Part shown: piece after piece, positions 8,594 through 62,765 of the stretch
How the letters are laid out: each line of letters starts with the position of its first letter
Position numbering within the stretch: the stretch's first letter is position 1
Source: Protonemura montana
Taxonomy: Eukaryota > Arthropoda > Insecta > Plecoptera > Nemouridae
NCBI GenBank assembly: GCA_947568835.1
Contig: OX387606.1
Coordinates: 558,001 to 622,000 of the forward strand
Reading direction: 5' to 3'
Length of the DNA: 64,000 nucleotides
Position numbers and translations under genes: made by a program
Notes under the pieces: model-generated
Databases searched by the model: none
What the model was told of the DNA's origin: nothing
What the model saw: the letters and a program-made list of their open reading frames with translations, nothing else

Positions 8594-8767
8594 ACCGAAA
8601 CGAGGCGTCTTACCACGACGCCGACCACGACGCCGACGCCGACGCCGAGGGGGAGAACAGCGAGCCGGCGTCCAACATCGACGACTTCGGGACGTACGAC
8701 GAGTACGACGACCGGGGCAACGTCACCGAGGAGGAGAGGACGACGGAGATACCGTTGGAGCTCGTCG
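8594..8767 (+). CDS. ROR: ROR exon: acidic linker
   Basis: The acceptor is TTGCAG before 8594 and the donor is GGTAAG after 8767. The reading frame starts one base into a codon and ends with one base of a Gly codon completed by the next exon. The product is a run of Asp/Ala/Glu followed by IDDFGTYDEYDD and a possible N-glycosylation site (NVT). The coding strand is strongly GC-rich. Confidence 0.7.
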
Positions 8768-36192: not shown

Positions 36193-39100
36193 GGGCCCAG
36201 GTTCTTGCCCCGGTGTGGGACAGATGGGTCCAGGTTCTTGCCCCGGTGCGGGACAGATGGGCACAGGTTCTTGCCCCGGTGCGGGACAGATGGGCCCAGG
36301 TTCTTGCCCCGGTGCGGGACAGATGGGCCCAGGTTCTTGCCCCGGTGCGGGACAGATGGGTCCAGGTTCTTGCCCCGGTGCGGGACAGATGGGTCCAGGT
36401 TCTTGCCCCGGTGCGGGACAGATGGGTCCAGGTTCTTGCCCCGGTGCGGGACAGATGGGCCCAGGTTCTTGCCCCGGTGCGGGACAGATGGGTCCAGGTT
36501 CTTGCCCCGGTGCGGGACAGATGGGCCCAGGTTCTTGCCCCGGTGCGGGACAGATGGGCCCAGGTTCTTGCCCCGGTGCGGGACAGATGGGTCCAGGTTC
36601 TTGCCCCGGTGCGGGACAGATGGGTCCAGGTTCTTGCCCCGGTGCGGGACAGATGGGTCCAGGTTCTTGCCCCGGTGCGGGACAGATGGGCCCAGGTTCT
36701 TGCCCCGGTGCGGGACAGATGGGTCCAGGTTCTTGCCCCGGTGCGGGACAGATGGGCCCAGGTTCTTGCCCCGGTGCGGGACAGATGGGCCCAGGTTCTT
36801 GCCCCGGTGCGGGACAGATGGGTCCAGGTTCTTGCCCCGGTGCGGGACAGATGGGTCCAGGTTCTTGCCCCGGTGCGGGACAGATGGGTCCAGGTTCTTG
36901 CCCCGGTGCGGGACAGATGGGCCCAGGTTCTTGCCCCGGTGCGGGACAGATGGGCCCAGGTTCTTGCCGCGGTGCGGGACAGATGGGTCCAGGTTCTTGC
37001 CCCGGTGTGGGACTGATGGGCCCAGGTTCTTGCCCCGGTGTGGGACAGATGGGTCCAGGTTCTTGCCCCGGTGCGGGACAGATGGGTCCAGGTTCTTGCC
37101 CCGGTGCGGGACAGATGGGTCCAGGTTCTTGCCCCGGTGCGGGACAGATGGGTCCAGGTTCTTGCCCCGGTGCGGGACAGATGGGCCCAGGTTCTTGCCC
37201 CGGTGCGGGACAGATGGGTCCAGGTTCTTGCCCCGGTGCGGGACAGATGGGCCCAGGTTCTTGCCCCGGTGCGGGACAGATGGGCCCAGGTTCTTGCCCC
37301 GGTGCGGGACAGATGGGCCCAGGTTCTTGCCCCGGTGTGGGACTGATGGGCCCAGGTTCTTGCCCCGGTGCGGGACAGATGGGCCCAGGTTCTTGCCCCG
37401 GTGCGGGACAGATGGGCCCAGGTTCTTGCCCCGGTGCGGGACAGATGGGTCCAGGTTCTTGCCCCGGTGCGGGACAGATGGGTCCAGGTTCTTGCCCCGG
37501 TGCGGGACAGATGGGCCCAGGTTCTTGCCCCGGTGCGGGACAGATGGGTCCAGGTTCTTGCCCCGGTGCGGGACAGATGGGCCCAGGTTCTTGCCCCGGT
37601 GCGGGACAGATGGGTCCAGGTTCTTGCCCCGGTGCGGGACAGATGGGTCCAGGTTCTTGCCCCGGTGCGGGACAGATGGGCCCAGGTTCTTGCCGCGGTG
37701 CGGGACAGATGGGTCCAGGTTCTTGCCCCGGTGCGGGACAGATGGGCCCAGGTTCTTGCCCCGGTGCGGGACAGATGGGTCCAGGTTCTTGCCCCGGTGC
37801 GGGACAGATGGGCCCAGGTTCTTGCCCCGGTGCGGGACAGATGGGCCCAGGTTCTTGCCCCGGTGCGGGACAGATGGGTCCAGGTTCTTGCCCCGGTGTG
37901 GGACAGATGGGTCCAGGTTCTTGCCCCGGTGTGGGACAGATGGGCCCAGGTTCTTGCCCCGGTGTGGGACAGATGGGTCCAGGTTCTTGCCCCGGTGCGG
38001 GACAGATGGGCCCAGGTTCTTGCCCCGGTGCGGGACAGATGGGCCCAGGTTCTTGCCCCGGTGCGGGACAGATGGGCCCAGGTTCTTGCCCCGGTGCGGG
38101 ACAGATGGGCCCAGGTTCTTGCCCCGGTGCGGGACAGATGGGTCCAGGTTCTTGCCCCGGTGCGGGACAGATGGGTCCAGGTTCTTGCCCCGGTGCGGGA
38201 CAGATGGGCCCAGGTTCTTGCCCCGGTGCGGGACAGATGGGTCCAGGTTCTTGCCCCGGTGCGGGACAGATGGGTCCAGGTTCTTGCCCCGGTGCGGGAC
38301 AGATGGGTCCAGGTTCTTGCCCCGGTGCGGGACAGATGGGCCCAGGTTCTTGCCCCGGTGCGGGACAGATGGGTCCAGGTTCTTGCCCCGGTGCGGGACA
38401 GATGGGCCCAGGTTCTTGCCCCGGTGCGGGACAGATGGGCCCAGGTTCTTGCCCCGGTGCGGGACAGATGGGCCCAGGTTCTTGCCCCGGTGCGGGACAG
38501 ATGGGTCCAGGTTCTTGCCCCGGTGCGGGACAGATGGGTCCAGGTTCTTGCCCCGGTGCGGGACAGATGGGTCCAGGTTCTTGCCCCGGTGCGGGACTGA
38601 TGGGTCCAGGTTCTTGCCCCGGTGCGGGACAGATGGGTCCAGGTTCTTGCCCCGGTGTGGGACAGATGGGCCCAGGTTCTTGCCCCGGTGCGGGACAGAT
38701 GGGTCCAGGTTCTTGCCCCGGTGCGGGACAGATGGGCCCAGGTTCTTGCCCCGGTGCGGGACAGATGGGTCCAGGTTCTTGCCCCGGTGCGGGACAGATG
38801 GGTCCAGGTTCTTGCCCCGGTGCGGGACAGATGGGTCCAGGTTCTTGCCCCGGTGCGGGACAGATGGGTCCAGGTTCTTGCCCCGGTGCGGGACAGATGG
38901 GCCCAGGTTCTTGCCCCGGTGCGGGACAGATGGGTCCAGGTTCTTGCCCCGGTGCGGGACAGATGGGTCCAGGTTCTTGCCCCGGTGCGGGACAGATGGG
39001 TCCAGGTTCTTGCCCCGGTGCGGGACAGATGGGTCCAGGTTCTTGCCCCGGTGCGGGACAGATGGGTCCAGGTTCTTGCCCCGGTGTGGGACAGATGGGT

Positions 39101-39492
39101 CCAGGTTCTTGCCCCGGTGCGGGACAGATGGGTCCAGGTTCTTGCCCCGGTGTGGGACAGATGGGTCCAGGTTCTTGCCCCGGTGCGGGACAGATGGGTC
39201 CAGGTTCTTGCCTCGGTGCGGGACAGATGGGTCCAGGTTCTTGCCCCGGTGCGGGACAGATGGGTCCAGGTTCTTGCCCCGGTGCGGGACAGATGGGTCC
39301 AGGTTCTTGCCCCGGTGCGGGACAGATGGGCCCAGGTTCTTGCCCCGGTGCGGGACAGATGGGTCCAGGTTCTTGCCCCGGTGCGGGACAGATGGGCCCA
39401 GGTTCTTGCCCCGGTGCGGGACAGATGGGTCCAGGTTCTTGCCCCGGTGCGGGACAGATGGGCCCAGGTTCTTGCCCCGGTGCGGGACTGAT
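36193..39492 (+). repeat. 33-bp minisatellite, 100 copies, fused to GPCR C-tail
   Basis: The unit GGGYCCAGGTTCTTGCCCCG plus GTGCGGGACAGAT fills 3300 bp exactly (100 units) with no indels. Because 33 is a multiple of 3, every frame gives an 11-residue repeat: WVQVLAPVRDR in the GPCR frame, MGPGSCPGAGQ and RFLPRCGTDGS in the other plus frames, and TGARTWTHLSR or PAPGQEPGPIC on the minus strand. Variation is mostly a C/T choice at one site. The rarer changes are GTGTGGG, TGCCGCGG, TGCCTCGG, one GGCACAGG, and GACTGATGG, which puts TGA in the GPCR frame at 37014, 37347, 38601 and near 39488. The long open frames are a by-product of the repeat, not evidence of five proteins. Confidence 0.95.
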
Positions 39493-40150
39493 GGGGAACT
39501 TGGTTCGCACGCTGACGAACAGGCTTTATATTTTTATGTCTTCGGTTTTGTTCTATTTTTTTATTTACTTTGGCAAAAATTCTACTAAATTTTGTAAAAT
39601 AAAGTATAGCGCCCTCTTCTTGAAGCAGGGGCCGATGATTGTACGCCACTCCGTCAGTAGGTACTGAACTGCGTATTGTCCATCTCACAAGAAACATGAC
39701 AGGACCACAGAATCAATCTCTTGCGAGGAGATGAACGTGTTGACAAGATGGCGTCATGTTTGGTATGCAATCTGTGGAGAGAGAACTTTCTATGAAAGTG
39801 GAGAGAAGATGGAAAGTCTGAGATCGAGATGAGTCTTTCTTCAAGCCGCGCGTTGCGTGCAAGTTGTACAGATGTTTATTGGGAATTTTTTTAAATGTTT
39901 GTGATTGGGTAGATGTGTCAAGCAGCACATGCATATGGAGTTGAATATGTTTTTATTTATTATTTATTTAATTTCCACTCAAACACATTGTGTGATAAGG
40001 AATTGTCATTTTACATTTGTATGGGCGATTTAAATCTCGTCAATGGTGTAAAAACAAAGTTAAATTAGTTAATTCTTCAATCTTTGTTTAAAATCACATC
40101 CATTCCTATCTTTCAGTTCCAGTGTTAGTACATTAGTTAGATGTATGATC
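39493..40150. other. Non-coding stretch after the 33-bp array
   Basis: Composition drops abruptly to AT-rich sequence. No exon or repeat recognised. Confidence 0.45.
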
Positions 40151-41247: not shown

Positions 41248-41785
41248 TTATTCAAGTATTAAATGCCTGTCCATGTCGTTATTAGAATAGCAACATAACT
41301 GGTTGGCTAAGTTGTTTTTATGATAAGGTTTAAACTCTGTCCTCCCAAGATTCAGCAGTTTCTTTGCCAAGTCCTGCATGACGTCACCAGTACACAAGAC
41401 AATCTTGTCTCTCACTAAAAGCTTCACGGTTTCCAAAGTCTTCGTCAGGCATTCTTCAGAGAGAGACGGTGGGTCGGCGATGACAATGTCAAAGCTATTA
41501 GCAAGCTCAGGAGGAACGTCAAGTGGTAAGTTGTAGTCGTATCTTATGAAGTCGGAACCGTACGATGCAAAGCTGTCGTCAAACTCAAATAATGTGACTG
41601 GAAAACAAAGATAGAACGATAAAGACACGTTATTTAATGTTAACTTTTAGGCCAACAACTTTGCTAACAACTACGTAGATAACTAGATATGTAAAGAGAG
41701 ATTTTTTTGTTTTTGCTGTCTTTGATTTTTCTTTGAGAAAAATGAGCACTTGCAGAGCATCATTAGCTAATTTCACATTTATTTC

Positions 41786-45432: not shown

Positions 45433-45693
45433 CACGCAATGTTCGTGTCCGCCAACCCCTCGAACACAAAAACATGCCAAATATATGAAATATAGGCCGC
45501 ACGCAATGTTCTTGTCCGCCAACCCCTCGAACACAAAAACATGCCAAATATATGAAATATAGGCCGCACGCAATGTTCTTGTCCGCCAACCCCTCGAACA
45601 CAAAAACATGCCAAATATATGAAATATAGGCCGCACGCAATGTTCTTGTCCGCCAACCCCTCGAACACAAAAACATGCCAAATATATGAAATA
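45433..45693. repeat. 67-bp tandem repeat, ~3.9 copies
   Basis: CGCAATGTTCTTGTCCGCCA marks units at 45435, 45502, 45569 and 45636, exactly 67 bp apart and nearly identical. All three minus frames stay open through it, which is a property of the repeat. Confidence 0.92.
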
Positions 45694-45770
45694 CTAGCAG
45701 TACCCGATGCCTAACGGCACCTGTTGATGTTGAGGGAGTGGGCATTTTGGTTGAAAATTTTCTCGATCTA
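45694..45770 (+). repeat. Fragment of the ACTAGCAG satellite family
   Basis: ACTAGCAGTACCCGATGCC followed by TAACGGCACCT and GAGGGAGTGGGCATTTTGG matches the junction block of the 920-bp satellite. It directly abuts the 67-bp array. Confidence 0.75.
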
Positions 45771-46950
45771 AATTATGTTTACAAATTTTTCCGAGTTTTG
45801 CCAGATGCTCTTTGAAAGCCAATTATAGGCCCACAACCAAGAGTACTATGAAAATGCTAAGAAAATCATATTTTATTCCCTAAAGACTCGTTGAAGAAGC
45901 CTTTTGCCTCTACGCCAGTACCTTAAACGTTGATGAGTTGCATGGCTAAGGGACACAATATTTTATGTGCTTTTTGGACAGAAATCACTCATTACAAATA
46001 ATTATATTCATTATTTTGTTTACATTGACGGTGCGTTTTATTTGAGATAACATAAACATGTTTCAAAATGTACAGAAATGTAATTTGTAATTGCGAACAT
46101 CATGATCTTTTTGACAAATATGATAATTATTCAAAAGTTTAGTTTGCGTTTTAAACTTTGACCTTTCGACAGCAACAATCAATGCAGAGCCATGTTGCAG
46201 CGAACAGCGCCACTGGAGTCTGGGCCTGAAGGAAAGAAGAAGTTGTGATTTTTTAAAGTGCACGGTTAGATAAAAAAAACCTTTTATAAGATTTAGAAAT
46301 TATCGTCTGCATAAAAAACAGCCTCTAAAAGGTTTTTGATCAGTCAAATTTTCTTACAACCCTAAATCCCAATGAAAGGCGGGCCCCTTCTAAGGAAAAT
46401 TTCTACTTAAAAGGCCACAATAACATTTTAGTTGACTGCAATGGAGTTTGTTAATCAAGGATTGGTAGGTGAACTACAAACTATTCACAATACTTTTACT
46501 ATTACTCGTTACTATTACTACTACTGCTCCACTATTACTCGTTGAAAAACTTAATGCTCACCATTAAACCGAAGGGTTCGTTCTCATTTGTAATTGAAAG
46601 TAATCGCCGCATCAGTGCAATGCAGAAGTTCCTTCTCAGGAACTTGACAGGGGCTAAAACAAAAACAAAAAAGACAGCAACAGAGAGGCACCATTCTTCG
46701 GGAAATGAAAAGTGTCCAGATGAATTCAACAGGATCTTCTAACCGTTGCCATCATAAAAGTGGTATCTCGTTGGAACTAAAAAAAAGTCGTTGATCAAGT
46801 GATAAAAATAGAATAATGAATAAAGAAAAAAAATCTCAAACAAATCCCAATTTTTTATAATTTTTTTATAATTTTTTTATAATTTTTTTTATTTTTTAAA
46901 TTTGTATTGAATTTTTATTGAACTTTTATTTAAATGTAATTATTGAATTT
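45771..46950. other. Non-coding stretch, AT-rich
   Basis: No exon recognised. A (TTTTTTATAAT)n low-complexity tract lies at 46850-46900. Confidence 0.45.
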
Positions 46951-46954
46951 ATTA

Positions 46955-47756
46955 TGGCTGTCAACGTTTAACCAAAGTACCAAAGCACTCCGGCTGTCAA
47001 CATTTAACCAAAGGACCAAAGCACTCCGGCTGTCAACATTTAACCAAAGGACCAAAGCGCTCTGGCTGTCAACATTTAACCAAAGGACCAAAGCAATCTG
47101 GCTGTCAACTTTTAACCAAAGGACCAAAGCACTCTGGCTGTCAACTTTTAACCAAAGGACCAAAGCACCCTGGCTGTCAACGTTTAACCAAAGGACCAAA
47201 GCACTCTGGCTGTCAACTTTTAACCAAAGGACCAAAGCACTCTGGCTGTCAACTTTTAACCAAAGGACCAAAGCACTCTGGCTGTCAACTTTTAACCAAA
47301 GGACCAAAGCACCCTGGCTGTCAACGTTTAACCAAAGGACCAAAGCACTCTGGCTGTCAACTTTTAACCAAAGGACCAAAGCACTCTGGCTGTCAACTTT
47401 TAACCAAAGGACCAAAGCACTCTGGTTGTCAACTTTTAACCAAAGGACCAAAGCACCCTGGCTGTCAACGTTTAACCAAAGGACCAAAGCACTCTGGCTG
47501 TCAACTTTTAACCAAAGGACCAAAGCACCCTGGCTGTCAACGTTTAACCAAAGGACCAAAGCACTCTGGCTGTCAACTTTTAACCAAAGGACCAAAGCAC
47601 TCTGGCTGTCAATATTTAACCAAAGGCACAAAGCACTCTGGCTGTCAACTTTTAACCAAAGGACCAAAGCACTCTGGCTGTCAACTTTTAACCAAAGGAC
47701 CAAAGCACTCTGGCTGTCAACTTTTAACCAAAGGACCAAAGCACTCTGGCTGTCAA
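46955..47756. repeat. 36-bp minisatellite, about 22 copies
   Basis: The unit CTGGCTGTCAACTTTTAACC plus AAAGGACCAAAGCACT repeats in strict 36-bp register. The main variable sites are AACTTT/AACGTT/AACATT and GCACTC/GCACCC. Being a multiple of 3, it opens long frames on both strands (12-residue repeats such as WLSTFNQRTKAL). Confidence 0.95.
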
Positions 47757-48053
47757 AAGATACATTTTATCTTATTGTGCAAAACTGTGAGCACCGCCCC
47801 GCTCACAGCTATGACAGCCATCCAAAAATATTGCCGCCTCTATGCAAATAGAACCATATGATAAAATATGATATAAGCTCAATTACCAAAACACGATTAG
47901 AATTGTATTATCAATTGTGATATATCCAGCTCTGTTTGGCGATCTTTCGTCCGTTAATAATCTCTTTGATAAGCCATATATGTACAACAGTATTCTGTTG
48001 GGCATCGTGTTCGTCGATGAAGAGGCACTCAAACAACCTAGTGTTGTTTGAGT

Positions 48054-49015
48054 GACCAAAGCACTCTGGCTGTCGACGTTTAACCAAAGGACCAAAGCAC
48101 TCTGGTGGTCAATGTTTAACCAAAGGACCAAAGCACTCTGGCTGTCGACGTTTAACCAAAGGACCAAAGCACTCTGGTGGTCAACTTTAACCGAAGGACC
48201 AGTATAGTACAGCAGTAGTCTGTCGCTCGCACGCACGAACTCACTTGGTTAAGCCAAGTGGACAGGAGTACTCTGTTGGGAATCGCGTACGTCCATGAGG
48301 AGGCACCCAAGCAACCAAGTGTCCAGTACAGCAGTAGTCTGTCGCTCGCCCGTGCGAACTCACTCGGATAATCCAAGTGGACAGTAGTACTCTGGTGGGA
48401 ATCGCGTACGTCCATGATGTTGTTGATCGTTCTTCTGTAGATAATCACTCTGATAAGTTATATGTACAACAGTATTCTGTTGGTAATTGTGTCCGACCAT
48501 GAGGAGGCACTCAAACAACCAAGTGTCCAGTACAGCAGTAGTCTGTCGCTCGCACGCACGAACTCACTTGGTTAAGCCAAGTGGACAGGAGTACTCTGTT
48601 GGGAATCGCGTACGTCCATGAGGAGGCACCCAAGCAACCAAGTGTCCAGTACAGCAGTAGTCTGTCGCTCGCCCGTGCGAACTCACTCGGATAATCCAAG
48701 TGGACAGTAGTACTCTGGTGGGAATCGCGTACATCCATAGGTCAATTAAATAAGCATAGTCACCAGCTTCGCAGTATGATGTTGTTGATCGTTCTTTGAT
48801 GTGATGTCGTTTTTTTTTTTTTTTTTTTTTGTTACTATGTATGTTGATCGACCAAAGCACTCTGGCTGTCAACGTTTAACCAAAGGACCAAAGCACTCTG
48901 GCTGTTGACGCACTCCAGCTGTCGACGTTTAACCAAAGGACCAAAGCACTTTGGCTGTTGACGTTTAACCAAAGGACCAAAGCACTCTGGCGGTCAAATT
49001 TTAACCAAAGGACCA
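48054..49015. repeat. Scattered 36-bp units interleaved with ~121-bp repeats
   Basis: Short runs of the 36-bp unit occur at 48054-48200 and 48850-49015. Between them lie units built on CAGTAGTCTGTCGCTCGC, starting near 48208, 48330, 48536, 48657 and 49027. Two are spaced 121-122 bp and the pair is duplicated at ~327 bp. These units contain an ACTTGG/CCAAGT hairpin. A poly(T) run sits at 48812-48831. Confidence 0.8.
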
Positions 49016-49757: not shown

Positions 49758-52700
49758 TTAAGAACGTGCAATCGGCAATTTCTCGATTGTGAATGGCTTA
49801 GGGCTGAGTGCCTGCGCAGAGAGAACGTTGGCGCAGAACAGTTCACCAAGCGCTCTCAAGTCCGGGTGAATTGTCAGACACGCTGTGCCATCAGGACTCG
49901 AGAATCCGTGCTGGTCTCTGGAATGGGAATCAAACATCCAATAGGTCCCGTCGTCTGCTCGGCCCAATGCTACCGACACGTCCGCAGATGTTAAAATCCC
50001 ACAGGCCGAGCTGGCGAGAAACTCGGTCAGTCCTGTCAGGAGGTCGGGCCAGGCGTCTTGGCTAGGTTGGACAGGGATGTTTTGTGGCCGGATCAAACCG
50101 TGCTTAGCATTTTCCACGACAGGATCAGAAGCAATGCAAAATTTCAATCCCATAACGGAGAAGCTATCGTGCAAATCATTCACAGCGAGAAATTCCTCGC
50201 CGAACGGCAGATTGTGTGCACTGAGAGTGTACAGTGAATCGCCGGCTTCGAGGATGCTGTCCAGAGTGTCAGTGTGCCAGGTGGAAGGGCATCGGCTATG
50301 TGCCATGGCGACTGCGCAAGCAGCCACTGCCGTGCATTGCCTCCCTGCATTGACAGATCGAGCGTCTCCCTGGTGAAACGAAGCACGCACAATGCAAGTG
50401 TGCGGCGCGCCACAGTCGCTTGTGTCCATCGGTTCGATTAGCTCACCAGCATCCGAGACCACGAGTTGACTGAGCGACTGCTCAACGGCCTCCTGGTCAG
50501 CCTTGTGATCGTCACTGCGACGGACACTGTGCGAGGGAGGATCCGCTGCCAGCTGTTCCGGCGTATGGATCTCGAGCACCTCCTTGTACACGATGTTCTT
50601 GGTGAAAGTGGTCTTGCTCGAAGCAATCAACATGCCCTGCGCCTCGTTGCCGGTGACTGCCAGGAAGACCGAGTCCAGAGATCGAGCTCGAGACAGCGCC
50701 ACGTAGAGCTGGCCGTGTCCAAACACTGGTTTTTCGAGATGCACACCCACTCGCCTCAAAGACTGTCCCTGTGCTTTGTTGATTGTCATGGCGAATGCCA
50801 GACGAATCGGGAACTGGCGCCTTGTCATGGTGAATGGCAAACCAATGTCTGAGGGCGTGAGGTTCACTCGGCAGAGAAAAGTTCGATCTCCTGTGTAGCG
50901 TCCTCCTATAATCCTGCAGTCGATCACGTGCTCGTGGAGTGCAACTACGCTGAGCCGAGTTCCATTGCACAGGCCGGCTCTCACGTTCACGTTCCTCATG
51001 AGCATCACGATTGCATGCACTTTCAGGCGCAGCTTGTGCGGTGGCATCCCGGATGGCGTCAACGAATTGAGATACTCAACAGGATAGTCGGTAGCCAAAG
51101 CGTCGCCATCTTCGCCTTCACTTACGTCTACTGAGTCTGCGCTGCAGTATTCGTGTGCGTCGCCTTCGAGGCGCTCCAGAACTGTGTCATTGATGTTCAA
51201 AGATTCCACGTTCTTCGGACACAGAATGGCATGGTCCTGCATCTCGGCCATCTCGGCAGCACTAATGCTCTTGCCGAAGACGGCGTCGATTACGCAGTCC
51301 ACGACACACTGATCGGGCAGGGCAATGGTGTCGTCCGGGAGGTGGCGGTCGTTCAAAAGCTCGCCGTTTCCCACGCGCAGCAGCCACTCGACGAACTCTA
51401 CTTCGCCTGCGTTCGCGCGCATGTTTGCGCGCAGCTCGAGGGTCCGGAACAACGACCAAAGCGCGCCTCGCTTAATGCACTGCTCGACAATGGTCGTTCG
51501 GTTGCCATTTCGAACGACTGGTAGGCACTGCCTAAAATCTCCGCCGATAACGATCACCTTTCCGCCGAACGGACGCTCATCGTTGGTCACGTCTCTTAGC
51601 GTCCGCTCGATCACGTTTAGGGCCAGCAGAGGCGCCATGGGTCCTTCATCCAAGATGATGACCTTGGCCGCCCTCAGCGAAGCGCCCTCGGCGGAGTTGG
51701 GCTTCACGCCAGACGTGCTGTTCTCCACAATGGGAACGGGCAATCGGAACCGTGAGTGGCAGGTCCTCCCTCCCTTCAGCAGCGTCGCCGCAATGCCCGT
51801 CCACGCGACGGCCACGGCTCGCTCGCCTCGGGCTCGCAGCGCGCTGATCAAGGTGTTGTAGAGGAAGGTTTTTCCGCTGCCGCCCGGACCGTCTAGGTAG
51901 AAGCACCTCTGCTCGGCGTTCGGATCATCGATTGCTGTCATCACCGCTTCGAATGCCACGCGCTGTCTGTCGTTGAGCTTCACCAAGTTCTCCTCGGCCT
52001 CTTCCCTTTCGGCGGCCTGATCGAACTGCTCGTCGACAGCAACGATGACTGGCACTCGGGGCGCCGGCAAACCGAGTTCGGCGTTGGTCAGTCGGTGCAG
52101 GGCAAGCACGGACTGGATTGCGTTCAGCGCCAACTGTTCCGCCTCGATGGGGTCGTGGTCTCGGGCGAAATCTTCGCAGAAATCGTCCTTGAATCGCTGA
52201 CACAGAGTCAGTGGGTCAACCGGCTGGCAGAAAGCGCAAATCACGGCAAACAGCTGACGAAGTTCGTTCGGCATCTGGATCGCAACCGCCTCCTCGAGGC
52301 ACTTTTGCCACTCGTCGTCGTCCATGAGCAGGTTGCGTGCCATGGCAGCTTCCTTGAAGCTAGCGTACACCGTGCCCTGGTGCGTGCGCACGTCCTCGTA
52401 GGAGGTGGCGCCGGCCACGTGTAGCAGAAGAAGACGCAGATGGTATCGCTCGATCTGCCGGGGCGTTACGGAGTACATGCGGCTAATGATGCTGCCGGCA
52501 CCTCGCTTACGTGGCTTCCACGCTTTTCCTTCGAATCGGTAGTGGTACGGTATGTCGACGTACTTGAACTGTCGTGCCGCCGAGTTGGTCTGGTTCAATG
52601 CAAACCATGCTGTGAGCGTGGTCAGCGCAGTGCTGCCGCGTTCTGCTGCGGCTTCCTCGTCTCCGGGCCGGAACGTGACTGTGTGCTCACCCTCGAGGTG

Positions 52701-55700
52701 GATCGCCAGACGAATGATGGTATGCGATTTATCGTGCATTTCAAATCCGAAAATGCGCCACCCCGCCTCTTGGGGACTCACGTAGCGAGAGTCAATGTAG
52801 TGTGAGACCTCGTCCCATACCAACTCGTGCTGAGCACCGCGCGCCGGACGCTGCTCGTGTTCGCCCTCCGCGGGGACAGAGACGCGAAGCTGCACCCTGG
52901 CACAGTCGTGACCTTTGTACACGTACTTGCACAGGTACTTGACCGTCTTCGCGGATCCACAGTGCTTGATGTTCAGGTGGCAGTCGAACTTCGAGCTCAA
53001 GTACTTGTTGTAGGGCACTACGTCTCGGTTGTCCACCACTCTCCCTGAGATGGTATGCGTCGGTCCGCTTTCTCTACGGCGATAGACGGTGAAGCCCCCT
53101 TCGTTGACCACAGTCTGCGCTGTGAACGACTTTGGGAACTTCTTCTTGCACTTGCCGTCCTCCATGCACACAGAGCGCATGTTCCGAGCGCCGCACGGGC
53201 CGTGAATCATTGACGACACGATCACCTTGTGCAGTCTCTCCTCGGTCACCGGATCGGGCAACTCGGCACAGATGAGTGCGTCTACCTCCTCGGGAGTGCG
53301 GATCTTGTCCTCGTCGCGGAGGATGACCAAAATGTGGGCGTGCGGGAGTCCTCGTTTTTGGAACTCGATCACGTGGAAGTGAGCCATGGGTACGCCCAGC
53401 ACGTGTCTTTTTGTCAGGTCGGCCATCAGTTCCTTGAGTTTCAGTTGAAACACTCGGGCGGTGAGGTCGGGTCGGTCCTCGGCCCTTTCAAACGCCGCAA
53501 GGCTCTCCTGAATTTCGGGCCACTTCGGGTTGCACGTCATCGTCAGGAAAAGATCGGGCTTCCCAAACTTGGTGACGATGCTCATCGCGTCTTGATAGAG
53601 TTGCTGACAATGCCTGGGGCTGCCGATGAAACTTGACGGCAGGATCACCATTTTGCCGACATTGCAGCCCTGCTGCTCGGCACGGTGCTCTATGTGGTCC
53701 ATCAGACCGCGATAAAGCTCGGCGCGCAGAGTTTTCTGGTTCCGGATCACGAACTCAAGACGATTCCCCTCCACCTTGATGTACGCGTCCACCATGAACT
53801 GCTGCGTCAGCTTGCCGGCGTGCAGCACGGGGTGGAAGGAACCAGCACGCTCGTGGAGTCGATGGCTGTAGAACTCCATCAGTGTGACGACACTGTGCGC
53901 TGATTGCCTCGTGTGTGGCATGTCTCTTTGCCAGCCGGGCTCTCCTCGCGGGAACAACAGGACGTAGCTCAACGGATCCGTGTTGGGCGACAGGACAGAC
54001 AGCTGCTCAAAGAAGCCGCTGTGGGTATGGATGCGAATGTCGCGGCCAAGCGGAGGCATTCCACCGTCCACGCTCTGATACACCACGGCCACCTCGTGCG
54101 CCGTCGGATTCTCGTAAAGACGTCGCCGGTCATCTACAAAGCGCAACTCGGCCCGCACTTCGGGGCGCCCCCCGGCCGCGGCACGGACGCGGTCCTCTGC
54201 CTCCACCTGCCCCAGCGTCTTGAGCCCTTGGGCGAAAGGATTAATGTCGCGAACCAGCGAGTCCAGCTCGTTCAGCAGGTCGGGCATCAGATCAGCATTC
54301 TCACGCCTGTCCATTCGATGCGTCTTCGCCTGCTCCGCGTCGAGAAAGTACAGGTGGGAATAGAGTGGCTTCTGCACCGCCTGCCCCATGTGTCCGATCC
54401 TGTGCTGAATGTTTCCATGGACACGGAAACAATACGTGCCACGACCCTGCGGGATATCCGTCTTTGCTCCGACCGACGCGAAGGAGAGCGAACTGTTGTA
54501 AGACCGGATGTTCTTACGGAAGTTCTTTGATCCGCAATGGTCGCCGGTAAGCAACGCAAGCATCAAGTCCGGATACGGGAGGAGCGGCTCTAGCATGACA
54601 TTACCCGCGTGACAACAGAGCTTGTATATCTTGTCTGAAGGCCTCTCTCCTTTGAAATGTAGAGCCCTGCAAATCCTGCATTCTTGGTCCAGGTTGCCAC
54701 AGTGAAACAATGCGACGTCAGTCACGTCTTGCCGGGCAGCCTCCATGTGCAAAGGATGTAGGTTAACCGGTGCAAGATCGGGCTCGATCGGTTCCTCTAC
54801 CACATCAATGGCCTCGACCTCGACTCGCTGGCTTTGCTCTTGTTCAGCCTCCTGAGCGCGTTGGGTAGCCTCCTCCTCGGCGCGCTGACAGACTTCCACT
54901 TCGGCCGCTGCGAACCGGTCCCTTGTTTTGGCTCTGCGACGCTGCTGCGATCGCTCCCTTGCGGCGACCAATCGACTGACATGCTCTGCTGTAGTCTCGT
55001 GTTCCCTCTGAGCTCGCATATGGTCTGTCTTTTGGGCCAGTCGCTGGAGACGCTGCTGTTCTGTAGCGTCACTCAAGCGGCGACGCTCTGCCTCTGTCTT
55101 CTGGGCCAGTCGCTGGAGTCGCTGTTCGTCAGTATTTTTCGCCGAACGGAGTCGCTCAGACTCGGCCTTTTCAGCCAGAAGCTGTATGCGCCGTTCCTCG
55201 GTCGCTTCGTTCAAGCGGCGACGCTTTGACTCGGCCACCTGGGCCAGACGCTCTGTACGCTGGCCCTCTATCTCGGCCTCTCTGCGCTGGCGAGCATTTT
55301 CTGCCATTTTCGTGAGGCGGGCACCCCGCTCTTCTGCAGTCTCATGCTCTCTGTGCAAACGCGCCTGCTCCGAAATAATAGCACGACGCTGTGGGCGTTG
55401 GCAGTCGGCTTGGTGCTGGCCAACTTCATTTCCCAGAATCTGGTCTACGTTAGCTTGCTCGCTTACATCAAGGGAAGGGAGTCCTACTGGCACATCCTCG
55501 AGAAAAGAAAGGAGCTGGCAGCTTGACATGCGCTTGCGCTGGTGACCGACAGCGACAACGGCAGCGGGGTTGGCCTGCTCGGGCAGCGCATCATGTGAAA
55601 CGACACTCACCGGGTTATCACCGAGAACTGCCACCGCGACATAGCCATCGGGAAGAACAGGAGGCTGCTCGTCGAGCGTCGGCGTCGGCGGGGCAGCAGT

Positions 55701-55847
55701 CGGCTCCTGGTCAGCTCGCTCAGCCGCTCGCTTCAGTCGTGCTCTTTCGGCTGCCGTCCTTTCCTTTGCTGCAATACTCTCAGCACTTGTCTTCGCATTT
55801 TTAGTAATTTTTCGACGCGTCAGGTTTGCACGCTTTTTAGCTGGCAT
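49758..55847 (-). CDS. Helitron Rep/helicase with N-terminal 23-residue repeats and C-terminal putative cysteine protease
   Basis: A single uninterrupted frame of 2029 codons. Residues ~160-305 form about five 23-residue basic/charged repeats (RLAQKTEAERRRLSDATEQQ type) resembling STPR DNA-binding repeats. C-x2-C at 390-393 may be part of a zinc site. Helitron_like_N spans ~640-990, with TMTCNPKWPEI near 770, the HUH-type His pair in GLPHAHIL (833-840) and the two-Tyr motif YLCKYVYKG (971-979). A PIF1-family SF1B helicase spans ~1290-1750: GPGGSGKT at 1320, ILDEGP at 1398, GGDFRQCLP at 1435 and YVALSRAR at 1715. Residues ~1815-2029 form an extra domain with NAGRQCT (Cys1838) and FDSHSRD (Asp1973, His1975). 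Helitrons move by rolling-circle replication, with Rep nicking and the helicase unwinding. All key motifs are intact, so activity is plausible. The gene is GC-rich in an AT-rich neighbourhood. The element's TC and CTRR termini were not located. Confidence 0.92.
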   Translation of the reverse strand: MPAKKRANLTRRKITKNAKTSAESIAAKERTAAERARLKRAAERADQEPTAAPPTPTLDEQPPVLPDGYVAVAVLGDNPVSVVSHDALPEQANPAAVVAVGHQRKRMSSCQLLSFLEDVPVGLPSLDVSEQANVDQILGNEVGQHQADCQRPQRRAIISEQARLHREHETAEERGARLTKMAENARQRREAEIEGQRTERLAQVAESKRRRLNEATEERRIQLLAEKAESERLRSAKNTDEQRLQRLAQKTEAERRRLSDATEQQRLQRLAQKTDHMRAQREHETTAEHVSRLVAARERSQQRRRAKTRDRFAAAEVEVCQRAEEEATQRAQEAEQEQSQRVEVEAIDVVEEPIEPDLAPVNLHPLHMEAARQDVTDVALFHCGNLDQECRICRALHFKGERPSDKIYKLCCHAGNVMLEPLLPYPDLMLALLTGDHCGSKNFRKNIRSYNSSLSFASVGAKTDIPQGRGTYCFRVHGNIQHRIGHMGQAVQKPLYSHLYFLDAEQAKTHRMDRRENADLMPDLLNELDSLVRDINPFAQGLKTLGQVEAEDRVRAAAGGRPEVRAELRFVDDRRRLYENPTAHEVAVVYQSVDGGMPPLGRDIRIHTHSGFFEQLSVLSPNTDPLSYVLLFPRGEPGWQRDMPHTRQSAHSVVTLMEFYSHRLHERAGSFHPVLHAGKLTQQFMVDAYIKVEGNRLEFVIRNQKTLRAELYRGLMDHIEHRAEQQGCNVGKMVILPSSFIGSPRHCQQLYQDAMSIVTKFGKPDLFLTMTCNPKWPEIQESLAAFERAEDRPDLTARVFQLKLKELMADLTKRHVLGVPMAHFHVIEFQKRGLPHAHILVILRDEDKIRTPEEVDALICAELPDPVTEERLHKVIVSSMIHGPCGARNMRSVCMEDGKCKKKFPKSFTAQTVVNEGGFTVYRRRESGPTHTISGRVVDNRDVVPYNKYLSSKFDCHLNIKHCGSAKTVKYLCKYVYKGHDCARVQLRVSVPAEGEHEQRPARGAQHELVWDEVSHYIDSRYVSPQEAGWRIFGFEMHDKSHTIIRLAIHLEGEHTVTFRPGDEEAAAERGSTALTTLTAWFALNQTNSAARQFKYVDIPYHYRFEGKAWKPRKRGAGSIISRMYSVTPRQIERYHLRLLLLHVAGATSYEDVRTHQGTVYASFKEAAMARNLLMDDDEWQKCLEEAVAIQMPNELRQLFAVICAFCQPVDPLTLCQRFKDDFCEDFARDHDPIEAEQLALNAIQSVLALHRLTNAELGLPAPRVPVIVAVDEQFDQAAEREEAEENLVKLNDRQRVAFEAVMTAIDDPNAEQRCFYLDGPGGSGKTFLYNTLISALRARGERAVAVAWTGIAATLLKGGRTCHSRFRLPVPIVENSTSGVKPNSAEGASLRAAKVIILDEGPMAPLLALNVIERTLRDVTNDERPFGGKVIVIGGDFRQCLPVVRNGNRTTIVEQCIKRGALWSLFRTLELRANMRANAGEVEFVEWLLRVGNGELLNDRHLPDDTIALPDQCVVDCVIDAVFGKSISAAEMAEMQDHAILCPKNVESLNINDTVLERLEGDAHEYCSADSVDVSEGEDGDALATDYPVEYLNSLTPSGMPPHKLRLKVHAIVMLMRNVNVRAGLCNGTRLSVVALHEHVIDCRIIGGRYTGDRTFLCRVNLTPSDIGLPFTMTRRQFPIRLAFAMTINKAQGQSLRRVGVHLEKPVFGHGQLYVALSRARSLDSVFLAVTGNEAQGMLIASSKTTFTKNIVYKEVLEIHTPEQLAADPPSHSVRRSDDHKADQEAVEQSLSQLVVSDAGELIEPMDTSDCGAPHTCIVRASFHQGDARSVNAGRQCTAVAACAVAMAHSRCPSTWHTDTLDSILEAGDSLYTLSAHNLPFGEEFLAVNDLHDSFSVMGLKFCIASDPVVENAKHGLIRPQNIPVQPSQDAWPDLLTGLTEFLASSACGILTSADVSVALGRADDGTYWMFDSHSRDQHGFSSPDGTACLTIHPDLRALGELFCANVLSAQALSPKPFTIEKLPIARS

Positions 55848-56771
55848 CTGTGGGAAGAAAGCGAGGGTTAAATACTACCTTGCTCACCATTGAAAACACC
55901 ATTTATCGATATCAGATAACCTTTGTTATTTATCTACTGGGTATCCGTTTGACCTGTACCTGTAGGTATCTTAATTCCTCTGATGACGATAAGAGGGGTT
56001 GAATATTACTGCGTGAACAACAATTTGCGAATTCCATTTGAAATTAGAAGTCATGGCACAGCGTCCATTATCGACAAAACAAAATCAATTATGGTTTTGT
56101 AAAGGCACCAGTCAAGCACTTCTTGACTGGAATAGTGCTTGACGTGGGTAAACTAAGCTATCATGCTATTCAATTCCATTAAACAATGTATATTTATAAT
56201 AATAATAATAATAATAATATCACTATGTAGGTATAGTAGATTCGGTACTTACAGGATTGCCGTATTGACCGGTCCACGGCCAGGGTCTTGAAAAGATTAA
56301 CTTCACACTTGATTTATCGGTTGATTTGCGACTCGCAATCAATGAAAATTGCACCAAATCACAATATTAGATATAATGATCCAATTTAAGACCAATTCAA
56401 ACCAACGTGACAGTAATAACACTATGAAATGGTAATTATCAACTGGAGATACGAAAAAGTAAACCGGCTTCTTTAACGTCTGTCTAGCTAGTGAGAAAAG
56501 AGAAGAACAAACATGGCTGCCATCGCAAACAGTTCGACGACAATGAGGCAGTGACTAATCGAATGGGACCAACAACAATCGCTCTACAAATCGAATGTTG
56601 AGATTGGCCTGCAAATGCGATTTGCATAAATATCCATGTAACAATCACCTCATATATCGAATGTTCAGTATGTTCAGTATGATCGATATCTGGTTGGATC
56701 ACATTGTTAGAACATATGACACGGGTAATCGCCTAACCGAGCATTCAGCAGGAATCAAGAAAATAAACACG
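55848..56771. other. Divergent intergenic region between Helitron ORF and small two-exon gene
   Basis: About 920 bp between divergent start codons. AT-rich, with an (ATA)n run near 56199-56218. It would hold the promoters of both genes if both are expressed. No specific elements recognised. Confidence 0.4.
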
Positions 56772-57776
56772 ATGGGTGCAATTTTCAGTTCACAAGAAAC
56801 GGAATATGGTGAGTAAAATTGTCTTTCTTACTTTTCTTAGCCGTGGTTATCAAAATACTATACATTATTATATAAGATAAGACATGTTTAGGCAATATAC
56901 CCTGATATTAAATGGATATGTTTTGAGTTATATAGTAGTGCAATTTTTGATATGTTCATCTCACTGGATACGTTCTAACCTACGTATAACTTATTTTTCG
57001 ATGTTTGTGATCGTTCTTATATTATCAATGAAACTTAAGGAAGCCAATATTTTATGGTTCTTTACACTGCTCGATATTGGGTATCTTAAGTCCATTTCAC
57101 GTCAATAAGGCGAGTATTTTAAAACTTTCATCAAGGCTCCACTGAAGCTAGGCATGAACATATAATAGTTTGTAAACTGCCCATGAAGCATTTTGTCAGA
57201 CTCAAGGAATTGCTTGTTATTTTGAAAAACTCTTAGCTCGTGTCAAAAATCAGAAAGTCCCTGAGGAATATGGAAATCCACTCTCAATCTTAACATGAAA
57301 CGCAGTCAAGACAGGATATTCCGGATATTGTTATTAAATATGATTTAAATCATCAAACATTCTCTGAGCAGTGTAATTTTTAATTTCCATTAGAGAGCGA
57401 GACGGAGGCGGAGGCGGAGGCTGCGGCTCCTGCCACAGAAGAGGACGCCCGTGAAGAGGCCCGGGCCATCGTTAAAGAAGCCCGCGTCGCTGCTGCAGCT
57501 ATTGTCGCTGCAGCCGAGCAGCTGGCGCGGGAGCGGCTGGCTAGGGCCGAGGCCCAGGTGACATTGATAGTCGCGGGGGCTACAGCCGTGGCAGGTCGCC
57601 CCCGCGAACAACAGCCTGGGCCATCACGGGAGCAACGTCGCGGCCAGCGCTTCGGGGGGAGAGGGGGCTGCAGCCCCGACAACACCAGCTGCTGCAGCCA
57701 CCGTCGCCCGGAGCGCCGCGACAGAAGCCGCAGCCCGAGCTGCCGTCCGAGCCACTGCGGCCGCAGTTGTTATTAG
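56772..57776 (+). CDS. Putative two-exon small protein, Ala/Glu/Arg-rich, MGxxxS N-terminus
   Basis: Exon 1 (56772-56808) reads MGAIFSSQETEY and ends at a strong donor, G|GTGAGTAA. Exon 2 starts at 57394 after a pyrimidine-rich CATTAG acceptor and joins in frame to give ESETEAEAEAAAPATEEDAR, a charged/Ala-rich helical segment and a basic Arg/Ser/Cys tail, 139 residues in all. Gly2 with Ser6 fits the N-myristoylation consensus. The exon is far more GC-rich than its surroundings, like the Helitron ORF ~0.9 kb away on the opposite strand. Composition suggests a frameshift: from about 57620 the +1 frame (AAAPTTPAAAATVARSAATE, stop at 57778) continues the Ala-rich style better than the annotated frame. 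No family recognised. It could be Helitron cargo, an accessory Helitron gene or a host gene. Confidence 0.45.
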
Positions 57777-57899: not shown

Positions 57900-59830
57900 A
57901 TATTGAAAATGTTTTTAATGCTTCGTATTTCCAGTTCATTCCTCAATCATGTCTATCAGATTCAAGTTTTGAATCAAGCAAAAAATTAAAGATTCAAGCA
58001 AATGATTGACGCTAGCTGTCATAATAATGTGGTCAAAAATTGTAATAATCTATCTTTGAGAGATAAGATTAAATACGGGTTGAATATTTACTGAATATTA
58101 CTTAAAAAACATTAAAAACACGCATTGAAACTTAACATAACAAAAAAGAAGATTTATTTCCATAAAGTTGTGTGATCCCATCTGTAAAGAATCAACAATT
58201 TTGTATAATGTGCAAAATTAAACCACTTTCAGCCGTCTATTACGCTGCACATTTTCATAGCAATGTCCTTTTCATGTTTTGAAACGCTTTCTTTGTATTT
58301 GAAATTTGCCGCTTATGTCACTCGGGGTCACTGCATTGTGGAAACTCTGTGAATTCCAAAGTGATCACGATGACAATTTCGAAAACAAACGATGCTGGCT
58401 GTCAAAAGATTTCCGTCCATGATTTCTTGAAATCTTTCTTAGAGAGTAAAACTTATTAAACACGTGTTACATCTCCACCAAATCTTACGAAAAACATGTT
58501 TAAAAGACGGATAGCAACTTAAAATTGATAAAATAAGTTTCTTCGAAAATGTAGTTGTTGTGCATTGTTTGATAACTGTCAAAATCTTTCCTTGCCAGCC
58601 AGTTTTAAAAAAAATGTCTCATGAAAATCTCATAAAATCCTCGTAGAAATATCGCTTTGGGTCGCGATCAGAATTTATGTTCAAATTCCAGCCGTTTTTG
58701 ACCGATTTTCGATATTCCAATTCCAATAGAGGTGTAAATAGATCGTTTAACTTTCCAATCCTTTTTGAAATGAAAAGATAACTTTAAGAATTCTTTCGCC
58801 TTGCAGTGGTCAAAAAACCAAACAAATGTTTGCATAAATTATTTCTATTTTAAGTAAACCGATCGCGAATAAAAGCGTTTTCACTCAATTTCTTCAATAA
58901 CTGAAACAGGCATGCATGCAAAGTATTATCGAATTGCTGCAGGTCAGTAAGAGGCAAGTTTTGCATCAATCAAAAATCGAGATAAATCAAGTGACTCTTA
59001 TTCATCTTGCTAGCCAAGACATCAACAATATTTTTGATACTTTACTATACTAAAACACTTTTAAATCATCGTGAAAAAGACGTAGCGGGATGTAAAACTG
59101 TATTTGAACAAATTAAGCCAATTTCACACGTTTTCCGTTCAGTTCTGGAGATTTTGAAAAGAATTTGACATTGACGTTTATTTTGACGTTGACTTTGACG
59201 TTTAAATTTGACGTTTGAATTTCCTGAATGCACTGCTGAGAAGATACATTCACGATTTCGTACACCTTGCTGTGGTGACAAAAAAGCAAACAATTGATCA
59301 AAGCTGTCAGTTTATTAGCAAAATTAATTCTTTTTCACGTAAAACGATCGCAATTGAATGTGTTTTCGCTCAATTACATCAACAACTTTAATACGAATGC
59401 ATGAAAAATCACCGTGGAGCTCTAGGCAAGAAAAACTCGAGTATTAAAAGAGTTATAAAATCGAGCTGCATCGCCTGGCTCTGAGATATCTTGCCGTCAT
59501 ATTTAGCAACTTTTCACCATGAAAACGCTCTCAAATCGCCGTCAAAATGTCACCCAGCAATGGAGAGCAGAATTACGAACAAATATAACCCAATTGCACA
59601 CGTTTTTGACCAAATTTCGCAATTTCTATCAACATTTCAGCTAACGTCACATACATCCCAGCCAGATACAAACTAAAAAGTTGAACATCGCTTAATTAAG
59701 GCTTTTATATAAGGTTAACTAGCAGTACCCGCTGCCTAACGGCACCTTACGATTTTGAGGGAGTGGGCATTTTGGTTTAAACGTGTCTCGAGTTTTCTTT
59801 GATGCCCTATTCAAAGCCTCTTTAAGGGCA
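57900..59830 (+). repeat. Diverged members of the ~920-bp satellite family
   Basis: Blocks matching the left-edge satellite occur in the same order: GAAATTTGCCGCTTATGTCA (58307), the TTGACGTTTA/TTTTGACGTT run (59165), AAGTTGAACATCGC, TTTTATATAAGG and ACTAGCAGTACCCG (59660-59735). Extra sequence between them makes the unit longer than 920 bp. Confidence 0.75.
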
Positions 59831-59837
59831 CCAAGGC

Positions 59838-61503
59838 CATGCAATACCATACAATACCATAAAATGCCATAGAATACCAAAATAACCCATATAATACCAA
59901 ACAAACCCATAAAATACAAAACAATATCATACAATACCAAAGAGTACCTAGAATACCATACAATATTAAACAATACCATACAATACCATACAATACCATA
60001 CAATACCATAGAATACCTAAAAATGCCAAACTAAATCATCGAATACCATTCAATTCCTAACAACACCATAAAAAAACCTTATAAGACCATAGAAATCCAT
60101 TGAAACTCATAAAATACCAGAGGATACCAAACAATACCATAAAATAATAAAGAAACCCATAGGAACATAAAAGAATACCAAAAAATACTATCGAATACCT
60201 CCAAATCCCATAGAGTACCATCTTATAGCAAAGAAATCCATACAATTTTATAGAATACCATCCAAAAACATTTAATACCATACACTTCCAAACAAAACCA
60301 AACAATTCCATACAATATCATAAAATACAAAAGAATACCATAGAATACCATAAAATACCATAGAATACCATAGCACTCCATAGAATACCATAGCATACCA
60401 TAGAATACCATAGCATACCATAGAATACCAAAGCATACCATAGAATACCATAGAATACCATAGAATACCAAAGCACTCCATAGAATACCATAGCATACCA
60501 TAGAATACCAAAGAATACCATAGCACTCCATAGAATACCATAAAATACCATAACATACCATAGAATACCAAAGCATACCATAGAATACCATAGAATACCA
60601 TAGCACTCCATAGAATACCATAGCATACCAAAGAATACCATAGCACTCCATATAATACCATAGAATACCATAGAATACCAAAGAATATCATAGAAAACCA
60701 TATAATACCATATAATACCATAAAATATCATAGAATACCATAGAATACCATTGAATACCATAGAATACCATAGAATACCATTAAACTCCATGGAATACCA
60801 TAGAATACCAAAGAATACCCTTCAATACCATAGAACACCATAAAATACCATAGAAGACTATAGCATACCAAAGAATACCATAGAACACCATAAAATACCA
60901 TAGAAGACTATAGCATACCAAAGAATACCATAGAACTCCATACAATACCATAGAATACCATACAATACCATAGAATATCATAGAATACCATAGCACTCCA
61001 TAGAATACCATAGAATACCATAGAATACCATAGAATACCATAGAATACCATAGAATACCGTAAAATACCATAGAACACCATATAATACTATAGAATACCA
61101 TATAACTCCATAGAATACCATAGAATACCATAGAATACCAAACAATATCATAGAATACCATATAATACCAAAGAATACCATAGAAATCCTTAGAATACCA
61201 TAGAATACCATTAAAAACCATACAATATCATAGATACCATAGAACTTAATAGAATACCATAGAATACCATAGAATACTATAGAATACCATCGAATACCAT
61301 CGAATACCATAGAATATCATAGAATACCATAGAACTCCATACAATACCATAGAATACCATACAATACTTAACAATATCATAGAATACCAAACAATATCAT
61401 AAAATACCATAGAACTCCATAGAATACCATATAATACCATAGACTACCATATAACACCATAAAGTACTATACAATATTATACAATTCCATAGTAAACCAT
61501 ATT
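59838..61503. repeat. 10-bp phased satellite, ~165 units
   Basis: The unit ATAGAATACC repeats with frequent substitutions but almost no indels. The register is unchanged from ~60181 to ~61230 and slips by one base once, at 61231. A 60-bp segment is duplicated near 60828 and 60888. On the minus strand all three frames are open because the 10-mer cycles through them without a stop, giving Tyr/Trp/Gly/Ile-rich pseudo-proteins. Confidence 0.93.
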
Positions 61504-62765
61504 AAACTTAGATTGGGTATTTGGATTAGATTTGATAAAACTGCACTCTGTCATTAATGACGTTTTGAATTTAAATACCTGTTGAATAATCACGGCATTC
61601 TCGAAAATAAAATAAATATCCACGGCGTCCTGATTCGATGAAAGATATCTGTCAAATGTTTATCTCTGATCTGTCAATGTCACTCTAAATCTAGTTTTGG
61701 CAAAATTATCATTAAAAAACTAATCAAGTGCGTTTTGTTTGATTAAAAACCCTATTTAAAGTCTTAAAGACCTGCAAAGAAAGTTAGGATTGTTATTGAT
61801 TTACTTAATTGTCACAAATATCATTGATGGCTTGGAATCAACTGTGTGATCTTGTCTAGGCTGGGGATGGAGAAAAATCGTCGTATTTTAAGAAATTTCT
61901 TGTCTTTCGTATACTATTTACAATAAATATCTTTAAATATGTTTACAAAAGATTCCAATAGTTTTGTTAATAGATTGTTTAACTTTCCAAACCTTTTTGA
62001 CGTGTAAATAACCTTCACAAGAATGCCACGGGCTTGTCAAGTGGCTATTTTTCATCTTGCTAGCCAAGACACCAACAATATTTTTGATACTTTACTATAA
62101 TAATAATAATAATAATACACTTTAAATTACCGTGAAAAAGACTTAGCGGGATGTAAAACTGTATCTGAACAATATAAGCCAATTTCACACGTTTTTCCTT
62201 CAGTTCTGGAGATTTCGAAAATAATTTGACATTGACGTTGACTTTGACGTTGACTTTGACGTTTGAATAGCCTAGATTTACTGCCGAAAAGATACTTTCA
62301 CGATTTCGTACACCTTGCCGTGGTGTCAAAAAAGCAAACAATTGATGAAAGCTGTCAGTTTATTAGCAAAATTAATTCTTTTTCACGTAAAACGATCGCA
62401 ATTGAATGTGTTTTCGCTCAATTGCATCAACAACTTTAATACGAATGCATGAAAAATCACCGGGGAGCTCGAGGCTAGAAAAAGTTGAGTATTAAAAGAG
62501 TTTTAAAAATCGAGCTGTATCGCCTGGCTCTGAGATATCTTGCCGTCATATTTAGCAACTTTTCACCATGAAAACGCTCTCAAATCGCCGTCAAAATGTC
62601 ATCCAGCAATGGAGAGCAGAATTACGAACAAATATAACCCAATTGCACACGTTTTTGACCAAATTTCGCAATTTCTATCAACATTTGAGCTAATGTCACA
62701 TACATCCCAGCCAGATACAAACTAAAAAGTTGAACATCGCTAAAATAAGGCTTTTATATAAGGTT
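61504..62765 (+). repeat. Long satellite-family copy
   Basis: Reverse-complement counterpart of 24705-25690. It contains the GAATTTAAATACCTGTTGAA block, the TTGACGTTGACTTTGACG run at 62228 and the terminal TTTTATATAAGG (62751). The 59490-59740 segment recurs at 62540-62790 with only a few differences. Confidence 0.75.

Follow-up and report, generated by a model that had tools for sequence, protein, structure and literature searches.

A canonical-type Helitron of Protonemura montana whose Rep/helicase protein carries an STPR array and a predicted viral tegument-like deubiquitinase domain

Helitrons that carry a viral tegument-like deubiquitinase (VTD) domain are already known, as are tandem Helitrons. 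In Erven et al. 2022 (PMC9741609), ubiquitin substrates are reported to be cleaved by Helitron VTDs, which also react with them, and the catalytic Asp-x-His to be invariable across VTDs; circular intermediates and tandem insertions have been reported for Helitrons (PMC5148889). As described in PMC4067079, canonical Helitrons have a 3' CTRR and, some 11 bp before the terminus, a palindrome, and Helentrons have S (GSP) instead of L (GLP) before the HUH motif. The STPR of FMBP-1 is reported to bind DNA (PMC4821344). Here we describe a Helitron in a stretch of 64,000 nucleotides from Protonemura montana (assembly GCA_947568835.1, contig OX387606.1; G000:C4:558001-622000, hereafter the window), which belongs to an assembly of 258 Mb in 34 contigs. 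Its Rep/helicase protein comprises, from the N- to the C-terminus, an STPR array, a Helitron Rep domain, a PIF1 helicase with a 2B domain and a cysteine-protease domain that is putatively a VTD.

The protein (P0001) was encoded by a single frame of 2029 codons on the reverse strand (49758..55847), the strand on which all features of the element given below lie unless stated otherwise. The initial annotation had proposed one open frame with HUH, two-Tyr and PIF1 motifs; the frame and the motif positions were confirmed, and the Pfam analysis agreed. The Helitron_like_N Rep domain was located at residues 659-841 (53325..53873; E = 1.2e-61), where GLP preceded the HUH motif (HAH, residues 836-838) in the signature RGLPHAH. 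The PIF1 helicase domain followed at residues 1290-1497 (51357..51980; E = 8e-57) and the Pif1_2B domain at residues 1591-1637 (50937..51077; E = 7.4e-18), with helicase motif sites at GPGGSGKT (1320), ILDEGP (1398) and GQLYVALSRA (1712). The stretch KYLCKYVYKG (residues 970-979; 52911..52940) is what we take to be the two-Tyr Rep motif, and the names used for the other Rep and helicase motifs are likewise those that we presume to apply. A HUH two-Tyr Rep and a PIF1 helicase were thereby found in one protein, as in canonical Helitrons. No AP endonuclease was matched by Pfam at E-values up to 10 in the 2029-residue protein, a scan that did not extend to the other small frames of the element; on this result and the GLP signature, a Helentron assignment was rejected. 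On the strand opposite the frame, ARAGORN called a tRNA-His at 52578-52649; since Rfam gave no match, this call is probably false.

The assignment of the C-terminal domain (residues 1815-2029; 49761..50405) to the VTD family of cysteine proteases, rather than to the OTU family, is supported by sequence comparison. In a phmmer search of PDB sequences, the domain matched the zebrafish Helitron VTD 8ADD (E = 1.3e-4) and 8ADB (E = 0.035), and the RQCT and FDSHSR stretches shared columns in the alignment to 8ADD. A seven-row profile that included the N-terminal half matched 8ADD and 8ADB at 7.7e-13 and 1.1e-4, respectively, with the Cys and the Asp-x-His in aligned columns. The predicted catalytic triad is Cys1838 (50334-50336), Asp1973 (49929-49931) and His1975 (49923-49925), so that the earlier proposal of a cysteine protease or deubiquitinase with these residues agrees with the alignment to 8ADD. 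When a model with a mean predicted local distance difference test (pLDDT) score of 38.2 was searched with Foldseek, 8ADD, 8ADC_B and 8ADC_A ranked first to third among 350,542 PDB chains. The same annotation had held that the domain was not a typical OTU protease and had named a C76-like fold as one candidate. No OTU profile was among the Pfam matches to the 2029-residue protein at E-values up to 10, and an OTU cysteine protease was rejected on that ground; the C76-like candidate proved right by the sequence relation to 8ADD, and Herpes_teg_N gave a match below the cut-off. Peptidase C76 is a name for the herpesvirus tegument deubiquitinases. There were no herpesvirus structures among the PDB sequence matches at E-values up to 10 (phmmer and seven-row profile), and PHROGs yielded nothing for the VTD.

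A search of the genome for the VTD gave 33 candidates, all of which were scored, and 31 matches. Ten matches were full-length with 100% identity (rounded); the other 21 had identities of 34-83%, and most of them were short or broken. Nine of the ten VTD-bearing loci were present among the 150 listed matches to PF14214. Six were intact in one long frame (the window copy and five more), although three of these six, L004 among them, were without about 97 N-terminal residues. The remaining loci were one on contig C14 with an internal TAG, two on C7 with shorter frames, and one on C11 that keeps only the 3' part. The possibility raised at the outset, that the C-terminal part was absent elsewhere, is thus contradicted by ten loci that carry the domain, though they are a minority of the copies.

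Absence of the VTD from the rest of the family was derived from the genome search, and the ends of the frames were read in six copies (L029-L034). In these VTD-less copies the frame stopped at PMDASSS or PMDASSSS, whereas the VTD type goes on PMDTSDCGAPHTCIVRASFH. Comparisons were made between the VTD type (A, L001) and the VTD-less type (B, L029). One copy on C11, L008, was a mosaic: in the aligned frame, its first 2.1 kb matched the VTD-bearing L002 at 100% identity, its middle part was mixed, and from column 4800 to the end it was 99.4-100% identical to L029, ending like L029 without a VTD. As judged from these alignments, the VTD is an exchangeable module, and its replacement through recombination is shown by L008. 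Two relics had the VTD beside Helitron sequence. In L041, the helicase end continued into the start of the VTD; in L035, Helitron coding sequence adjoined the VTD, with identities of about 61% in the Rep part and about 69% in the VTD. Of the 182 sites that separate A from B, L035 agreed with A at 78 and with B at 35, so that L035 is possibly a sister of A and not an outgroup.

A second VTD (32-38% identical) was observed in L039 (G000:C11:3274000-3283990, at 3538-4302 and 8312-8800), in which QQCT and FDSHARD were kept. It lay behind a segment resembling a PHD finger (E = 0.00039, below the cut-off) and was split by what appeared by eye to be a retrotransposon insertion. The frames upstream looked transposase-like by eye, and the three that were scanned had no meaningful Pfam match. 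For this VTD piece from a different element 8ADD was also the top match (E = 0.005). A VTD may occur in a non-Helitron element too.

The N-terminal repeats were resolved as seven units of 23 residues (residues 152-312; 54912..55394). The best stretch for PF21107, residues 151-220, scored above the cut-off as an STPR (E = 1.3e-6; 29.1 bits against 27 bits). Identity at a lag of 23 residues was found at 52 of 138 positions, which none of 20,000 shuffles reached (shuffle maximum, 32). The repeats reported in the initial annotation were therefore real, although about five had been claimed and seven were counted; as the outer units are weak, five was a fair reading. Among the STPR matches listed for the genome (best 150 of 715 candidates), most had frame lengths like those of these Helitrons.

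In VTD-less copies the array changed in length by whole units. Among the 141 listed Rep copies that were VTD-less or recombinant, 110 had a frame of 1800 codons or more; in 90 of these 110, the length lay a whole number of 23-residue steps from 1831 (1808, 1831, 1854, 1877, 1900, 1923, 1946), 14 were one residue above such a length, and six fitted neither. The steps were mapped by pairing the 150 listed N-terminal matches (best 150 of 194) with the 150 listed Rep matches, which gave 123 pairs and left 27 unpaired per side. The distance between the two paired matches was 2025 + 69k nucleotides in 117 of the 123 pairs, with k values of -1 (2 copies), 0 (32), 1 (11), 2 (37), 3 (14), 4 (18) and 5 (3). 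All six exceptions had short frames (797-1758 codons), and four were off by 1-3 bases; each of the 100 measured copies with frames of at least 1800 codons differed by whole 69-bp units. Within the VTD type, the STPR array of L007 was longer than that of L001 by precisely one unit. Whole units were not the sole changes in this type, since L002 also showed differences of 3 and 8 residues beyond the array, and L004 had a long N-terminal gap. Three adjacent STPR units of L029 were 91-97% alike in DNA. Between L001 and L029, the ratio of non-synonymous to synonymous substitution (dN/dS) was 0.08 for Rep, 0.086 for the helicase, 0.27 for the STPR array and 0.48 for residues 1-150; Rep and helicase therefore evolve more slowly than the array.

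An intact Helitron had been claimed at 49758..55847. The intact long frame stood, but these coordinates are those of the frame only; the whole element, as delimited by the match ends of many copies, is 14,025 bp long and runs from 59718 to 45694, with 5' TTAACC and 3' CTAG. Its 3' terminus (45694..45721) consisted of a hairpin with a 6-bp stem, GGTGCC-GTTA-GGCATC (45706-45721), followed by 12 nucleotides ending in CTAG, with T next at 45693. Such a CTAG (CTRR) end, with a palindrome 12 nucleotides from it, is that of a canonical Helitron. The last 208 bases queried (45693-45900) aligned to all ten VTD-bearing loci at 97-100% with a common stop (best 40 of 1323 candidates), and the first 419 bases reached 59718 in 39 of 40 copies, the other beginning 6 bases in (best 40 of 1167 candidates).

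In all, 21 5' ends (20 fetched and that of the window) and six 3' ends (five fetched and that of the window) were read. Seventeen of the 5' ends lay directly after CTAG, one lay after a Helitron-like end without the G (L062) and three after unrelated sequence; the preceding base was A in all four ends not directly preceded by CTAG. At four 3' ends TTAACC followed immediately; at the other two, T and then different sequence came next. Because of these flanks, the element is taken to insert between A and T, as canonical Helitrons do, with copies often head to tail; the free ends are few, and the insertion site was determined by reading of flanks only. The window copy itself directly follows a second Helitron-like repeat, abutting its 3' end; this repeat extends to at least 62500, and its related 3' end differs by one base in the hairpin stem and folds with a 3-bp stem. 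The 3' part of this neighbour (59719-62500) lies directly upstream and ends in CTAG; on C3, C4, C5 and C11 it has copies with 97-98% identity across about 2.8 kb.

Within the non-coding 3' part of the element, tandem arrays extended over 46955..49015, with 36-bp units at 46955-47756 (22.3 copies), 48054-48201 and 48910-49015, and 119-bp units at 48471-48738. A possible 5'-leader intron (55848..56252), suggested by eye from a GTAAGT donor at 56252 and a CCCACAG acceptor abutting the ATG, would precede the frame. In the 5' part, a GC-rich open frame of 130 codons was observed on the opposite strand (57384-57776), possibly captured sequence.

The Helitron family is abundant and recently multiplied, and its near-identical copies are often arranged head to tail. 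At least 150 Rep copies were found in the 258-Mb assembly with PF14214 (207 candidates, 150 scored, 150 matched), on 11 contigs. Among these listed matches, C7 had 45 and C8 had 33; there the copies formed same-strand runs, with orientation switching in blocks. These two contigs are exactly 925,000 and 890,000 bases long. In viral contigs, relatives of the full-length protein were confirmed for none of two candidates, the HUH pattern gave none, and the VTD alignment was confirmed for none of 42. In a collection of genome contigs, the HUH pattern was found in four stretches of bacterial metagenome-assembled genomes, which are presumably eukaryotic contaminants. Only L070 had a frame of full Helitron length (1636 residues), and neither STPR nor Herpes_teg_N was found in it by Pfam at E-values up to 1; L071 was scanned as a fragment, and L072 and L073 lay outside the Pfam scan.

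Elsewhere in the window, a tandem array was observed at 36107-39712, with units estimated by eye at about 33 bp and with several open frames across the two strands. A frame at its edge (35931-36200) resembled a membrane protein by eye and had no Pfam match. A frame with an N6-adenineMlase domain (E = 1.1e-33) at 41248-41646 is likely to be a host exon.

Taken together, we consider it highly probable that the window holds an autonomous canonical-type Helitron with an STPR array, a Rep domain, a PIF1 helicase and a VTD that act as follows. Rep would nick the element and peel off a single strand, which would circularise and insert at A|T, in many cases where another Helitron ends. As an additional DNA-binding part, the STPR array would tether or aim the Rep protein, and the VTD would strip (K48-type) ubiquitin off the Rep protein or its partners, sparing the transposition machinery from degradation. 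Protection from ubiquitin-driven degradation was also proposed for Helitron VTDs by Erven et al. (PMC9741609). Deubiquitinase activity, DNA binding by the STPR array and transposition would be expected of the window Helitron by analogy. The VTD is not needed for spread, since VTD-less copies are more numerous.

Several results weigh against this reading. A four-row profile, mainly of the C-terminal half of the VTD, reached only 0.12 with 8ADD and 0.16 with 8ADB. Herpes_teg_N was the top Pfam match of the VTD but under the cut-off (E = 0.004; 17.3 against 25 bits), and it was not matched in the Pfam scan of five further VTD pieces of the genome. The AlphaFold models of the VTD were poor, with mean pLDDT values of 30.9 (four rows) and 38.2 (seven rows), so that the structural match lends weak support; Foldseek also draws on sequence. 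The 5' end was TTAACC in all 21 ends read and not the TC of canonical Helitrons. Constraint on the STPR array is modest, since its dN/dS was higher among VTD-bearing copies when these were compared with L001 (0.49-0.51 for L002, L004 and L006; 0.32 for L007). The evidence of constraint on the VTD is also thin in number: the ten near-identical copies had five synonymous and one non-synonymous variable sites, which suggests constraint, but the count is small and the copies are related and not independent.

The VTD might instead be a passenger that is kept by chance, catalytically competent or not, without benefit, and is being lost through recombination with VTD-less relatives. Near-identical VTDs at only ten loci, against at least 150 Rep copies, and the replaced end of L008 are consistent with this possibility, which we regard as real but rather doubtful, because the predicted triad was unchanged in all ten copies, the variable sites were mostly synonymous, and the 21 other matches, mostly broken but two of them beside Helitron coding sequence, point to long retention. 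That the VTD cuts the Rep/helicase protein itself, and not ubiquitin, appears very improbable. A cysteine-protease domain at the extreme C-terminus of a large single-frame protein would suit such self-processing, and the VTD family is thought to stem from non-deubiquitinase proteases (PMC9741609); however, every characterised VTD cleaves ubiquitin according to the same source. Moreover, VTD-less copies retain the remaining protein, and no cut by the VTD is therefore needed. The copy number and the arrays could also reflect segmental duplication or an assembly artefact. The round sizes of C7 and C8, with their long same-strand runs, would fit this, as would the flanks of L029-L034, which are shared over all or nearly all of 2 kb, though these flanks include the element's own ends. 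Transposition is nevertheless preferred and the artefact judged unlikely, given the insertions with unrelated 5' flanks (L056, L058, L060), the copies on 11 contigs, and the exact CTAG|TTAACC joints expected from insertion at an element end or from a joined-end circle.

For the length steps of the STPR array, neutral slippage or unequal exchange of no functional meaning has, in our estimation, an even chance of being the right account. The likeness of the three adjacent units of L029 favours unequal exchange, for which the same-strand copy runs supply ample partners; on the other side, the comparison of A with B indicates a degree of constraint on the array, and relative to L029 the 117 whole-unit copies had at most one unit less or five units more. 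A bolder proposal, which we hold to be improbable, is that the array forms a fast-changing modular head for reading DNA. Unequal exchange in head-to-tail Helitron arrays would add or remove whole repeats, so that sister copies would differ in DNA affinity or target choice, like the zinc-finger arrays of host proteins, while a recombinable VTD cassette would shield a subset of copies from degradation.

Among described systems, the window Helitron resembles the zebrafish Helitron VTDs DrT1/DrT2 (8ADD; Erven et al. 2022, PMC9741609), in which a Rep/helicase transposon protein is also joined to a VTD with shared RQCT and FDSHSR. The VTD-carrying Helitrons described there are classed as Helentrons and bear an AP endonuclease at the C-terminus, a domain not matched in the window protein, and the residue number His453 given there suggests an N-terminal VTD, whereas the window VTD follows the helicase. 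With canonical Helitrons as described in PMC4067079, the element shares a single Rep/helicase frame, a hairpin near the 3' end, CTAG (CTRR) and insertion at A|T; it differs in its 5' TT in place of TC, its STPR array and, in a subset of copies, its VTD. Helentrons, according to the same source, likewise have a rolling-circle Rep/helicase, with a cysteine protease of a different class (OTU) in some of them, but the window element had neither an AP endonuclease nor an OTU match at E-values up to 10, has GLP and not GSP, and was inserted at A|T rather than into T-rich sequence. FMBP-1 also has tandem repeats of 23 residues, four units as reported in PMC4821344; the Helitron array, above the PF21107 cut-off, has seven, varies between copies and forms part of a transposon protein. 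The herpesvirus large tegument deubiquitinases (Herpes_teg_N) share the Asp-x-His layout and a weak profile match with the window VTD, although that match lay below the Pfam cut-off at E = 0.004 and no herpesvirus structure was matched at E-values up to 10. No paper on STPR and Helitrons together was found among open-licence PMC papers. As far as was searched in that literature, with Repbase, Dfam and RefSeq outside the search, the following features appear to be new: a VTD on a canonical-type Helitron without an AP endonuclease match; the position of this VTD after the helicase; an STPR array in a Helitron; the unit-step variation of this array; and VTD-bearing and VTD-less copies that recombine within one genome. 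The unit steps amount to a naturally graded dosage series of a putative DNA-binding domain within a Rep protein. The VTD-bearing copies, their closely related VTD-less counterparts and a natural recombinant in one genome provide matched pairs for asking what a deubiquitinase does for a transposon. Whereas the published cases are endonuclease-bearing Helentrons, the predicted deubiquitinase domain of herpesvirus type is placed here on a canonical-type Helitron.

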